Assembly: GCA_002792315.1 (NCBI GenBank)
Contig: PFOB01000055.1
Coordinates: 1 to 37,865 of the forward strand
Direction: 5' to 3'
Origin: Candidatus Roizmanbacteria bacterium CG_4_10_14_0_2_um_filter_39_13
Lineage (GTDB): Bacteria > Patescibacteriota > Microgenomatia > UBA1406 > GWC2-37-13
DNA length: 37,865 bases
Under the pieces are notes generated by a model that worked only from the letters and a program-made list of their open reading frames with translations, had not been told where the DNA came from and did not search any database. Both the position numbers and the translations under genes were made by a program. This document shows, in pieces, positions 17,380 to 22,536 of the stretch (position 1 is its first letter; the number at the start of each line of letters is the position of its first letter).

Positions 17380-17761
17380 TTTCGTATATCAAAAATACCA
17401 TCAACCCAGTTCAAAAGAAGGCTGCTCGTTTGGCTAAAAAATATCCCTTTGGAGCACTCGTTGCGATACTTGGCCTTTTGGGATTGTTGTCACCAATGCA
17501 ATTGTGGTTGTTGCTAAAATAAACTCAAAGAATCAATTCTTGATGCCGCAGGAAGTAGACTTGAGCCAGTACTTCTGACTTCATTAACGACCATTTTTGG
17601 GCTCCTTCCCATAACTCTGTCCGACCCATTGTGGCGTGGATTGGGAGGTGCAATTATCTCTGGGTTGTTCTTTTCAGGTATGATAAAGCTCTTTTTTTAT
17701 TCCTGTGGTGTACTATATGTGGTTTTCTTCCACCCCCTCTTTGCCTCAAAAAAAACAATAG
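17380..17761 (+). pseudogene. degraded RND-family efflux transporter, C-terminal remnant
   Basis: Frame-shifted reading: PFGALVAILGLL / GIVVTNAIVVVAKINSK / SILDAAGSRLEPVLLTSLTTIFGLLPITLSDPLWRGLGGAIISGLFFSGMIKLFFIPVVYYMWF. Confidence 0.75.
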
Positions 17762-18935
17762 ATACAAGAAGCATCAGAGCCTGAAGAACAAACACATATT
17801 TTCCGATAACTGCGTAAAACCACGTAGCAATGAGTGGTGCGATGGCAGCAGATGCTGAGGAGAACGATTCATCTATCCCCATGATCTCACCTTGTTTACT
17901 TTTATCAACTGCTTTTGAGATCAGAGACTTAAATGTCGGCATCGAGACTGATATTCCAAAATTATTTAAATAAATAAGAGGCAAAAATAGAATAAAGTTT
18001 GATACAAAAACGAAAAGTAATTGTGATACAACAAGAGCCATTTGCCCCAGAACGAATGTTTTTAGATCGCCAATGCGCTTTGAAAGCCAGCTCGTGACAA
18101 GCGTCTGATTGATGATCAAGAATACGCCAATAACTACAAACAACAAGCCGACTTTTGCTGAATCAAAAGCAAATGTATCGATCAGAAATAATACAAATAT
18201 TGAAGAAAACGAATTTAAGACAAACAAAAACATACCTCGAAGAAAAAAGAGGTATTTAATCTGACGATTCTTGCTATATTTCTTTATCTTCGGAAGAAAT
18301 TGCAGTTCTTTGATCCAACTCATTTTGACAAAAGAAGCTCTTTTTTCTACAGGAAGTGATTCGGGTAAATATTTCACCATTATGATCAATGTCGCAATAG
18401 AAATTGCCAAAGTGAGAAGTATTGGTGCCAAATAGCCAAGTGACGAAGACATCGTAAGCCCACCGATCACGGGACCAACAATGAGTCCCAAACCGACCAC
18501 TCCACCCATCAAGCCAAATGTTTTTGTCTTTTCCTCATGTGTTGTGATATCAGAAAGATATGCATTTGCTACTGCGTTATTGCCACCAGTAATACCATCT
18601 GCGATACGTGCAAGCATAATTACCACTACAGGAATTGAGATCATTCCAATAGTAATGTGCGGAACAAAATAGGACAAAGCAAATATCACCCAACTCAACA
18701 TTGTACCTGTTTGTGAGATCAGCAATATTGGCCGTCTCCCGTATCGATCACTCAATGTTCCGAGAATCGGCGCTGCAAAGAATTGAAAAAACGGATATGT
18801 TGAAAGAATCACCCCATACATGACGGTGCCTCCGCCATAAGCTTTAATAATAAAGGGCAAGATAGGAATCAGGATTGAAAAATTGAGCGTATTTACAAAC
18901 GTCAAAAGCAATAATGGAATAAATTCGCGTTTCAT
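17697..18935 (-). CDS. MFS transporter (TetA/multidrug-like)
   Basis: ILGTLSDRYGRRPILLISQ motif, 12-TM pattern; likely start MKREF at 18935. Confidence 0.85.
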   Translation of the reverse strand: MKREFIPLLLLTFVNTLNFSILIPILPFIIKAYGGGTVMYGVILSTYPFFQFFAAPILGTLSDRYGRRPILLISQTGTMLSWVIFALSYFVPHITIGMISIPVVVIMLARIADGITGGNNAVANAYLSDITTHEEKTKTFGLMGGVVGLGLIVGPVIGGLTMSSSLGYLAPILLTLAISIATLIIMVKYLPESLPVEKRASFVKMSWIKELQFLPKIKKYSKNRQIKYLFFLRGMFLFVLNSFSSIFVLFLIDTFAFDSAKVGLLFVVIGVFLIINQTLVTSWLSKRIGDLKTFVLGQMALVVSQLLFVFVSNFILFLPLIYLNNFGISVSMPTFKSLISKAVDKSKQGEIMGIDESFSSASAAIAPLIATWFYAVIGKYVFVLQALMLLVSIVFFEAKRGWKKTTYSTPQE

Positions 18936-18973
18936 AGAAATGTTTATTGTATCATTCTTTTCATCTTTCTGTC

Positions 18974-20441
18974 CTGTCAGTCCAAAATAGAAATGTCCCC
19001 CCATCAAACTGTATCAAGTGATAGGTTTGACTTGTCAGAGATGGATGTATTCCATGGATGATTAGCAGGGGCATTCCAGTTGAGCTTGTGACTGGTTAAA
19101 ATGACTGGATAGGTTTTCATTTTTTGTGGTCTTTCGGGTAATGGAAAGACGGAGAGATCATATTCTCTTAAGTTGAAATGTAATGTTCCATCAATCCATT
19201 CTTCAACGGTGAGATGTTCTTTTGGACGTACCGTGGTAGGTTGAATTTCTTTGAGCTGATACCACTTGGTCTTAAACTGTACCGTGAAGTCGTTGTTAAT
19301 GGCTCGTTCTGATTGTACAGAAAATATACGATTGAGATTCTGTATATCTTGTTTGGTAAGTTCTCTGTGGGCATCACCCTCTTTAGCCGGTATGACCGTA
19401 AATCTCTCGTTAAACTTTGGAATGAATACTTCTTGAAGAAAGGTATTTGCCTCGTCAGGAGTTTTGATATTTACCAGTCTCATTTCTTTGATGAGACGAT
19501 CTTGTAAGGTTTGAAACAAACGTTCAATACGACCTTTTGCTTGGGGAGAGTTGGCAGGAATCGGATTAACACCCAACTGCCTCATGGCACGCTGAAACTG
19601 TGTGAGGAGTTCTTGGTTATCAACTGCTTCCTTGTGATTGATCTTGTAGGTTGAGAATTTATCGAGGTAAATACAGACTGGTTTCCCCTTGAGAATGACA
19701 TATGTTTTCCAGAACTGGAATACGGATATCACACCTTCATGTGGAGCAAAGTATGCTTTGGTAATCTTTCCTGTTGCATCGTCAATTGCTGCCAGTAAAC
19801 ACATCTCAATCGGATTCCCTTCAGAATCATTGTATCGGTCTTCAAGCCAGAAGTGGTATGATCCATCAAACTGCTCCATCTCTCCGTAACATTCTTTCCG
19901 TGCTCTCCAACTATGATGTTGTCCTGTTTTCTTGTGGCTACGTGCCTTCCACTGATTGTCCTCTATCATCCACAATCTCAATGTCTCTGGATGTACCGAT
20001 ACACCATCGCGTTCTGCTAACTTCTCAGAAGCAAACGTTGGTTTAAAATCGTGATATTTTTCTTTGATCAATGTGAGGGCTCTTTCTTTTGTTAAAGGCT
20101 CAATTTGATGGTTTCCCATCCGCCCCTTGAGACCGTGAATTACCGCCTTTATTCCTTCTGTCTTTACTTTGCTCTTCAACCGTTTCACTTGTCTCACACT
20201 GATCTCTAATTGTTTGGCTGCCACATCATTCGTGATCTTTTTCTCCAACACTAACTTGATAACTCTACCCTTTGTTTCTTCCTCACTGGTGAGGTTGATT
20301 TTATGTGCCATGTGGTTAATACTGTGACTAATGAATAGTCCACAGTATCAGTGCTTTTTTACCCATTCCTATGAAATCTTTTGAAACAGGGGTGACGTTT
20401 CTATTTTGGTAGAGGGGGACATTTCTATTTTGGTGTAACAG
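18974..20441 (-). mobile_element. ISNCY-like insertion sequence
   Basis: 28-bp TIRs CTGTcAgtCCAAAATAGAAATGTCCCCC (18974-19001) and the inverted copy at 20414-20441; transposase inside. Confidence 0.8.
19004..20311 (-). CDS. DDE transposase with rve-type catalytic core (ISNCY-like)
   Basis: N-terminal HTH (NDVAAKQLEISVRQVKRLK); EQFDGSYHFW, YLDKFSTYK, SPQAKGRIERLFQT. Confidence 0.88.
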   Translation of the reverse strand: MAHKINLTSEEETKGRVIKLVLEKKITNDVAAKQLEISVRQVKRLKSKVKTEGIKAVIHGLKGRMGNHQIEPLTKERALTLIKEKYHDFKPTFASEKLAERDGVSVHPETLRLWMIEDNQWKARSHKKTGQHHSWRARKECYGEMEQFDGSYHFWLEDRYNDSEGNPIEMCLLAAIDDATGKITKAYFAPHEGVISVFQFWKTYVILKGKPVCIYLDKFSTYKINHKEAVDNQELLTQFQRAMRQLGVNPIPANSPQAKGRIERLFQTLQDRLIKEMRLVNIKTPDEANTFLQEVFIPKFNERFTVIPAKEGDAHRELTKQDIQNLNRIFSVQSERAINNDFTVQFKTKWYQLKEIQPTTVRPKEHLTVEEWIDGTLHFNLREYDLSVFPLPERPQKMKTYPVILTSHKLNWNAPANHPWNTSISDKSNLSLDTV

Positions 20442-20455
20442 AGAATAAACACGAC

Positions 20456-20485
20456 TTGACAAATGAATCTGAGGAGGTGTATATT
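20456..20485 (+). promoter_or_regulatory. strong sigma70-like promoter of the 6S-like RNA
   Basis: TTGACA (20456-20461) N18 TATATT (20480-20485). Confidence 0.65.
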
Positions 20486-20491
20486 GATCTT

Positions 20492-20668
20492 AATCCTCCA
20501 AATGAAATATCTAAATAATATCTTTTTTGAACACTCATATTTTTAGGGCCTTGAGAGGATCAAGGAAAAAGTGACGTTCGGATAAGCCGAGGCTTATAAG
20601 ACGCACCTACCCGTTAGACTAGAAAAAAAGATTTTAGAATGAATTTCATACGGAGGATTATTTTTTTT
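20492..20668 (+). ncRNA. ssrS: 6S-RNA-like ncRNA
   Basis: ~177 nt; closing helix AATCCTCC/GGAGGATT, ATGAAAT/ATTTCAT, CTAAA/TTTAG, ATCTTTTTT/AAAAAAGAT; central bubble; apical ATAAGC-CGAG-GCTTAT; terminal U8. Confidence 0.68.
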
Positions 20669-20912
20669 CTAAAGACCACCCAATTGTTCTCGATTAATTC
20701 TGCATAACTTTGGTGAATATCAATCTTTATCAAACTCAATTTCGTAAATAAATATTCTCAATTGATGTCCATAGATTTTATACGATTATTTATAGAGTTA
20801 TAAAATTTTTTGCAATTATTGAAAGATACGGTATAATAACAGTAGTTTGTACCACATCTATCCCTAAGACCTTCGACTTTTTCCAGAATTTATTACAAAT
20901 TATTTAGTATGT

Positions 20913-22238
20913 ATGCCAGCTTCAGATAAGAACGACTCACTCAGTGAGCAAGATACTTCCTTTGACGTATCTTCGATGTTAGAAACCTATGAGGAAAAAC
21001 CTATTGAAAAGGTAGGAGATTCCCAACTGCGATCTCCAGAAAAAAAACCAGCAGCTCCTTCACCAATGAGCAATCCAAAATCTCGCGCAGAAGTTATCAG
21101 CCCAAAACTCAAAGAGGATTTAAAATCAAGCTATGAAGCAGAGGGAATTTTAGACATAACCTATGGTGGGTATGGGTTTTTACGACAAAATTACACGGTG
21201 AGTCCGGATGATGATATTTATGTGTCAACATCACAAATACGAAGATTTTGGCTTCGCAAAGGCGATGAGGTAAAGGGTCTTGCTCGGCCTCCAAAAGATG
21301 GAGAGCGCTTTCATAGTCTTTTATTGATTAAAGAAGTGAACGGACGTGCAATGACTGAGGAAGAAAGTAGAAAACGCAATAAATTTGACCAACTTACCTC
21401 ACTTCATCCTGAAAAACAAATTATTTTAGAAACAGATAAGGATATTCTTTCAACTCGCATCATTGATTTGGTGGCACCAATCGGATTTGGTCAGAGAGCT
21501 CTTATCGTTTCTCAGCCGAAAGCGGGAAAGACGACATTTTTGAAAGATATAGCTGAGGCAATAGCCATAAATCATCCAGAAGCACATATGATCGCAATAT
21601 TGATCGGGGAGCGACCAGAGGAAGTGACCGAAATAAAACGATCTATTAAGGGTGAAGTCGCCGCTTCACATTTCGATGAAACACCGAAACAACAAACCAA
21701 AGTTGCAAGCCTTGCGCTTGAAAGAGCTCGGCGACTCGTCGAGACAGGCAAGGATGTCGTTATACTTTTGGATTCAATCACGCGACTCGCACGGGCGTTC
21801 AATTTATCTATAAGTAATTCCGGACGTACATTATCTGGAGGATTTGATCCCCAAGCCCTATACCCTGCAAAAAAATTCCTTGGCGCAGCTCGAAACTGTG
21901 AAGAGGGTGGAAGTCTGACGATTATCGGTACCGCCCTTGTTGGTACAGAGTCTCGCATGGATGACCTGATTTATGAGGAATTGAAAGGTACGGGGAATAT
22001 GGAGATTCATCTTGATAGAAAATTTGCGGAGAAGCGCATATATCCTGCAGTGAATATCACCATGTCAGGTACTCGACATGAAGAGCTCTTGTTTGACGAA
22101 GAAACGCTGAAACGAGTTACGACGCTTCGTCGAATGATGTCTTTACGGACACCAGAAGAGAGTTTGATGGCCATGCTTGATAAGCTTCCAAAAACAAAAA
22201 ACAACAAAGAATTTTTGGAACAACTTCACAAGGGGTAA
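20913..22238 (+). CDS. rho: transcription termination factor Rho
   Basis: APIGFGQRALIVSQPKAGKTTFLKDIA; VILLDSITRLARAFN; GGFDPQALYPAKKFLGAARN; GTGNMEIHLDRK. Confidence 0.97.
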   Translation: MPASDKNDSLSEQDTSFDVSSMLETYEEKPIEKVGDSQLRSPEKKPAAPSPMSNPKSRAEVISPKLKEDLKSSYEAEGILDITYGGYGFLRQNYTVSPDDDIYVSTSQIRRFWLRKGDEVKGLARPPKDGERFHSLLLIKEVNGRAMTEEESRKRNKFDQLTSLHPEKQIILETDKDILSTRIIDLVAPIGFGQRALIVSQPKAGKTTFLKDIAEAIAINHPEAHMIAILIGERPEEVTEIKRSIKGEVAASHFDETPKQQTKVASLALERARRLVETGKDVVILLDSITRLARAFNLSISNSGRTLSGGFDPQALYPAKKFLGAARNCEEGGSLTIIGTALVGTESRMDDLIYEELKGTGNMEIHLDRKFAEKRIYPAVNITMSGTRHEELLFDEETLKRVTTLRRMMSLRTPEESLMAMLDKLPKTKNNKEFLEQLHKG

Positions 22239-22299
22239 GGATAAATACTTAAAAAGTACTATTCTATACATTGTCTCGATTCTCTTGTATCATACATAT

Positions 22300-22536
22300 A
22301 TGACATCAACGACACTGGACCGACGAGTAAGCAGAATACTCGGACAACTTCGAGGTATCCAGAAAATGGTTGCTGAGGAGCGGAACCAAGTAGAAATACT
22401 CCAACAAATATCGGCAATTAAAAAAGCTATTAATGGTCTTTCCAAAGAGATAGTGTTGCAATATTTTGAAAAGAAGGTGCCAGAGGAAAAAAAGAAAGAA
22501 GTTGAAACGGTCATTCAACGAATCATAGACTTGTAA
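22300..22536 (+). CDS. CsoR/RcnR-like (DUF156) regulator
   Basis: DRRVSRILGQLRGIQKMVAEERNQVEILQQISAIKKAINGLSKEIVLQYF; ATG 22300 with TATCAT box just upstream. Confidence 0.8.
   Translation: MTSTTLDRRVSRILGQLRGIQKMVAEERNQVEILQQISAIKKAINGLSKEIVLQYFEKKVPEEKKKEVETVIQRIIDL

Follow-up and report, generated by a model that had tools for sequence, protein, structure and literature searches.

The window (the whole stretch of 37,865 nucleotides analysed here) encodes a small RNA that stands alone and is probably highly expressed; we take it to be of the 6S kind (probability about 0.78), although it is very divergent from known 6S RNAs. 6S RNA is a near-universal bacterial regulator, an RNA decoy that ties up RNA polymerase. 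The standard 6S model matches none of the window's class, and the covariance models described below (R1 to R3) supply a candidate 6S RNA for this class. This candidate has a distinct apical structure and a pRNA start that can be predicted, and in one clade it is linked to rho. With it, the presence of 6S RNA in very small genomes becomes directly testable, and RNA-family annotation would be extended to a large uncultured group.

Promoter and extent of the RNA

The features of the locus, all on the plus strand, are:

20456-20485, +, sigma-70/A-type promoter TTGACA-N18-TATATT, 11 of 12 consensus positions
20492-20668, +, RNA of 177 nt including the U8 tail (fold; homologues by DNA search and covariance models)
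20492-20507, +, closing arm, 5' strand: AAUCCUCC (H1) and AUGAAA (H2), partner 20644-20659 (covariation)
20520-20528, +, P2 (downstream duplex), 5' strand AUCUUUUUU, partner 20624-20632
20529-20545, +, central bubble, 5' strand, the putative template strand (conserved AC; bubble motif)
20546-20548, +, GGG clamp on the apical side of the bubble, partner CCC at 20610-20612
20549-20565, +, extra small hairpin CCUUGA-gagga-UCAAGG directly after the clamp (fold; compensatory changes)
20571-20606, +, apical arm: GUG...CAC and hairpin AUAAGCC-GA-GGCUUAU (fold; core covariation)
20610-20623, +, CCC clamp and 3' strand of the central bubble (GUUAGACUAGA) (covariation)
20624-20632, +, P2, 3' strand AAAAAAGAU (covariation; native versus swapped duplexes)
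20644-20659, +, closing arm, 3' strand: UUUCAU (H2) and GGAGGAUU (H1) (covariation)
20660-20668, +, intrinsic-terminator-like end with the U8 tail (few relatives only)
20810-20837, +, promoter-like site for rho, TTGCAA-N16-TATAAT (equivalents at three loci of relatives)
20913-22238, +, rho, downstream neighbour, separate from the RNA (NCBIfam Rho; synteny)

A first-pass annotation of this stretch had proposed the promoter and, downstream of it, an RNA of about 177 nt with paired ends and a terminal U8, and both were found at this locus: the promoter boxes are TTGACA (20456-20461) and TATATT (20480-20485) with a spacer of 18 nt, the -10 box is followed by 6 nt and then by the first RNA nucleotide, A20492, and the 3' end of the RNA is the U8 at 20661-20668. 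When promoters were counted in 58 homologues, with spacers of 16-18 nt and 5-9 nt from the end of the -10 box to the RNA, 52 agreed with the consensus at 10 or more of 12 positions, compared with 1% for shuffled upstream sequence; among distant copies of the RNA, 19 of 20 have at least 9 of 12. The strand on which the covariance models find the RNA is also the promoter strand. The presence of a near-consensus promoter across homologues indicates that the RNA is transcribed independently and, judged from the promoter sequences, its expression is likely to be high. The U8 terminator that had been part of the same proposal is present at the window locus, but it is confined to a few relatives, and most homologues have no U8.

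Fold and covariation

The window RNA folds into a rod with its 5' and 3' ends paired. Its minimum free energy is -47.8 kcal/mol, compared with -30.7 ± 3.6 kcal/mol for 200 shuffled sequences, none of which folded as well (z = -4.7). Covariation upholds the end-to-end pairing: among 21 relatives, 19 of the 31 pairs show two-sided changes with pairing kept, a count that was not reached in any of 500 shuffles, and the covariation score is 0.334 versus 0.203 for shuffled alignments (21 sequences, 31 pairs), a signal that is lost when the partners are slid. The same is seen in the core of 43 sequences, with 239 cells of two-sided changes (96 in shuffles) and a covariation score of 0.371 (0.188 shuffled).

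P2 is paired in 95% of cells and has two-sided changes in 8 of its 10 pairs (21 sequences); its strands pair far better within their own species than when swapped between species (P = 6e-9). The GGG:CCC clamp is invariant in the RNA family, with pairing in 99.2% of the cells of 43 sequences. Across homologues, the median length of the bubble strands is 16 nt (13-17) on the 5' side and 10 nt (8-12) on the 3' side. Of the central bubble and single apical hairpin that had been described initially, the bubble is present, but the apical part consists of two hairpins (20549-20565 and about 20582-20597).

Distribution

By DNA search, the RNA element was identified in one further genus of the family and, within the genus, in five genomes besides the window's. 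Covariance model R1, built from six copies, matches 22 of 73 genomes of the family; R2, built from 21 copies, matches nearly all sampled family members and also members of other families. R3, the core model from 43 copies, matches 91 of 382 genomes of the class from at least 11 families, as a rule with one full-length match each, and many of the matched genomes belong to families outside the model-building set. About three quarters of the sampled class genomes have no R3 match under strict filters.

In a sample of 382 genomes from the phylum, R3 has seven matches, all within the window's class, and the model is therefore specific. The Rfam 6S model (RF00013) matches 32 genomes of this sample, five of them over the cut-off and none in the window's class: RF00013 and R3 never match the same class.

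Relation to known 6S RNAs

The window has no match to any Rfam family at gathering score, 6S (RF00013) included, and at E values up to 10 only chance matches are found at the RNA (eukaryotic families and other RNAs). The Infernal search with the Rfam 6S model that had been suggested as a check was thus negative: RF00013 has no match at the RNA locus at E ≤ 10, neither in the window nor in any of 38 carrier genomes, and its single, sub-threshold match across these 38 genomes is at a different locus. R2 and R3, in turn, were run against 20 canonical 6S loci and matched none of them significantly. Because RF00013 does not recognise the RNA and binding and pRNA synthesis are predictions, we do not file the RNA under RF00013 and claim no membership of that family. 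A literature search, mostly outside subscription journals, found no paper that links 6S RNA with the window's lineage.

The likeness is one of architecture. The RF00013 consensus consists of the 5' bubble strand, GGG, apical arm, CCC and 3' bubble strand, and the window RNA family has the same order: P2, 5' bubble strand, GGG:CCC and 3' bubble strand. As in 6S RNAs (RF00013, including the copies from the phylum), the molecule is a rod of about 160-200 nt with closing arm, central bubble and apical arm, here backed by covariation; the bubble is of 6S dimensions and adjoins the same GGG:CCC clamp as in the 6S consensus, and the position of the predicted start site is alike too. The similarity to 6S RNAs of the phylum's other classes extends to the repertoire of apical loops, as CCGUGG is the commonest loop and CCUUGG the next in both the window RNA family and canonical 6S. 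It also includes a bubble motif that the window RNA family and the 20 canonical loci have in common, in the same position (for example UUUCCUCUACACCUUCAUUUAU-GGG at locus L066 compared with UUUUCCUCUACAACUUUUCCGAUU-GGG at locus L109). A windowed score of this motif, with near-duplicates removed, gave P = 0.003 against column-shuffled motifs and P = 0.0005 against shuffled segments, but as this test was run after a cruder best-hit test that had been weak (P = 0.07 after composition control), the evidence is partly post hoc and the motif supports the likeness, short of proof. The original proposal of a 6S-like RNA that fits in size and topology and is divergent in sequence is thus favoured by the comparison, which shows a single-copy, strongly promoted rod found across the class, with 6S-sized bubble, clamp, a conserved putative pRNA start and shared apical loops.

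There are also differences. The window RNA has no significant RF00013 score. Unlike the canonical 6S RNAs examined, its family has the clamp followed on the 5' side by an additional hairpin, so that the apical arm is branched, whereas the 3'-bubble hairpin of canonical 6S RNAs of the phylum (ACCUGG...CCAGG) is missing. Its P2 is U-rich, and in one clade the RNA is linked to rho.

Alternatively, the RNA could be a new rod-shaped housekeeping RNA with another protein partner, similar to 6S by convergence. The absence of an Rfam match, the failure of RF00013 and R2/R3 to reach each other's family and the branched apical arm would all agree with such an origin, but it would require that bubble size, clamp, start position, bubble motif and loops arose by chance and that the mutually exclusive distribution with RF00013 is chance too, and we consider it unlikely. 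It is likewise improbable that the RNA is a class-wide polymerase-binding RNA with branched apical arm that is an open-promoter mimic of independent origin or of the core-binding (Ms1-like) type, coupled to rho in one clade and setting polymerase sequestration and Rho supply together there.

Predicted pRNA start and mode of action

At the junction of P2 and bubble, the dinucleotide AC directly follows P2 in 39 of 43 homologues. Its near-invariant C is nucleotide 41 of the window RNA (C20532) and lies between nucleotides 38 and 48 in most other homologues. From its position in the sequence, C20532 is predicted to be the template for the first pRNA nucleotide, and the pRNA would be 5'-GUUCAAAAAAGAU; predicted pRNAs of the RNA family mostly begin with GUU, GUA or GUC. 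The pRNA of B. subtilis 6S starts at nucleotide 40 (PMC8876501), next to the predicted 41 of the window RNA, and known pRNAs are GUUCGG in B. subtilis and GUAGGC in A. aeolicus (PMC12005410); the B. subtilis 6S-1 product and the predicted GUUC... of the window are both G-initiated, whereas the sequences of the two RNAs are very different. Some genera of the RNA family have a strong collapse-type helix, in which the far end of the 5' bubble strand pairs with P2 on its 3' strand, a possible counterpart of the B. subtilis 6S-1 collapse helix; with an overall P of 0.38 it was rejected as a general feature.

A fold of this kind is by itself not specific to 6S. Ms1 RNA, which was originally a computational 6S candidate with a 6S-like bubble and was first taken for 6S, was later shown to bind core polymerase (PMC9130861), and this history is a warning against assigning 6S identity too readily. 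An RNA of the Ms1 type would bind core RNA polymerase without sigma and serve as a store of the enzyme or control its level, and the 6S-like fold with central bubble alone fits both Ms1 and 6S. However, Ms1 is about 300 nt long, has extra hairpins at its ends and is reported from Actinobacteria (PMC9130861), whereas the window RNA, at about 177 nt, is closed by pairing between its own two ends. A templating bubble is also suggested by the putative pRNA start, which is conserved, and by the clamp in common with the 6S RNAs of the phylum, and we regard an Ms1-type RNA as quite unlikely.

Overall, a 6S-type RNA that is highly diverged and acts as an open-promoter mimic agrees best with the evidence; it is predicted to be a new structural variant of 6S that binds polymerase and templates a pRNA. 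As such, the rod would mimic an open promoter and bind the sigma-70-type RNA polymerase holoenzyme: the closing arm and P2 would stand for the downstream DNA, the 5' bubble strand for the template strand and the apical arm for the upstream DNA. The polymerase would start a short pRNA opposite C20532, giving 5'-GU... (here GUUCAAAAAAGAU), and the unwinding of P2 would release the polymerase. In some genera, the far end of the 5' bubble strand may pair with the 3' strand of P2, as in the collapse helix of B. subtilis 6S-1.

Linkage to rho and genome neighbourhood

In the window's order and in family f25 the RNA immediately precedes rho and has the same strand; within families f1, f2, f3 and f25 this is true for every examined copy whose contig reaches far enough. 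This perfect synteny in one clade looks cis-regulatory and counts against the 6S reading: like rho leader regions, with which it shares the position just upstream of rho, the RNA could be a structured 5' UTR that controls rho, for example by autoregulation. Consistent with this, the gap between RNA and rho is only 21, 28 or 38 nt in some genomes, too short for a second promoter, so that co-transcription with rho is likely there, and a genome that has no rho (G016) has no RNA either. Co-transcription with the downstream gene is nevertheless compatible with a 6S role, and E. coli ssrS-ygfA is a precedent; moreover, rho has a promoter of its own in the window, as it does in several relatives. In other families of the class, unlike a rho leader, the RNA also occurs away from rho: it is 38 kb from rho in family f31 (G119), with no RNA upstream of rho itself, and 167 kb from rho in family f9 (G054), and rho is found at none of the 20 distant RNA loci. 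The RNA is therefore a standalone RNA, a rho leader is excluded as its general role, and we consider the leader explanation very unlikely.

In the distant families, the RNA is mostly located beside tRNA genes, which suggests an older shared location. The neighbouring tRNA at these loci (L173-L192) often has the anticodon-loop sequence UUUGUAAA.

On the upstream side, an ISNCY-family insertion sequence (18982-20434, with a transposase at 19004-20311 on the minus strand and inverted ends of about 21 nt) comes with its right end to within about 20 nt of the RNA promoter, but an origin of the RNA by chance or as part of this element is refuted by the homologues, as promoter and RNA are retained in relatives that lack the insertion and the RNA pairs covary, and its probability is negligible. 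In relatives, a fmt-like gene is found on the upstream side of the RNA, and this gene is absent from this place in the window. The insertion sequence adjoins an MFS efflux transporter (17697-19007) that resembles the tetracycline Tet(A)-type group, far below curated cut-offs.

Further observations concern the genomes as a whole. The genome from which the window comes (assembly 95% complete) has no tmRNA over the Rfam cut-off, only weak short matches. Ribosomal protein bL9 is absent in 15 of 15 relatives and present in 10 of 10 bacterial control genomes; since loss of bL9 is linked with the Patescibacteria/CPR, this absence and the genome size together suggest that the genomes belong there, probably to the Microgenomates group. 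In eight genomes of other classes that have canonical 6S, rho was undetected with the window Rho protein as query; most checked genomes of the window's class have rho.

The end of rho in the window is overlapped by a gene for a small protein (22177-22536) whose domain, PF02583, is that of metal-sensitive transcriptional repressors. Near rho, seven loci from further families of the class have a conserved RNA-like element of another kind. This second element, which has no Rfam match, consists of two hairpins, AAAGAGCATTACTACCGC...GCAATGCCCTTT and TAGGGCAGGC, and could be a small RNA encoded on the opposite strand and ending in a terminator.
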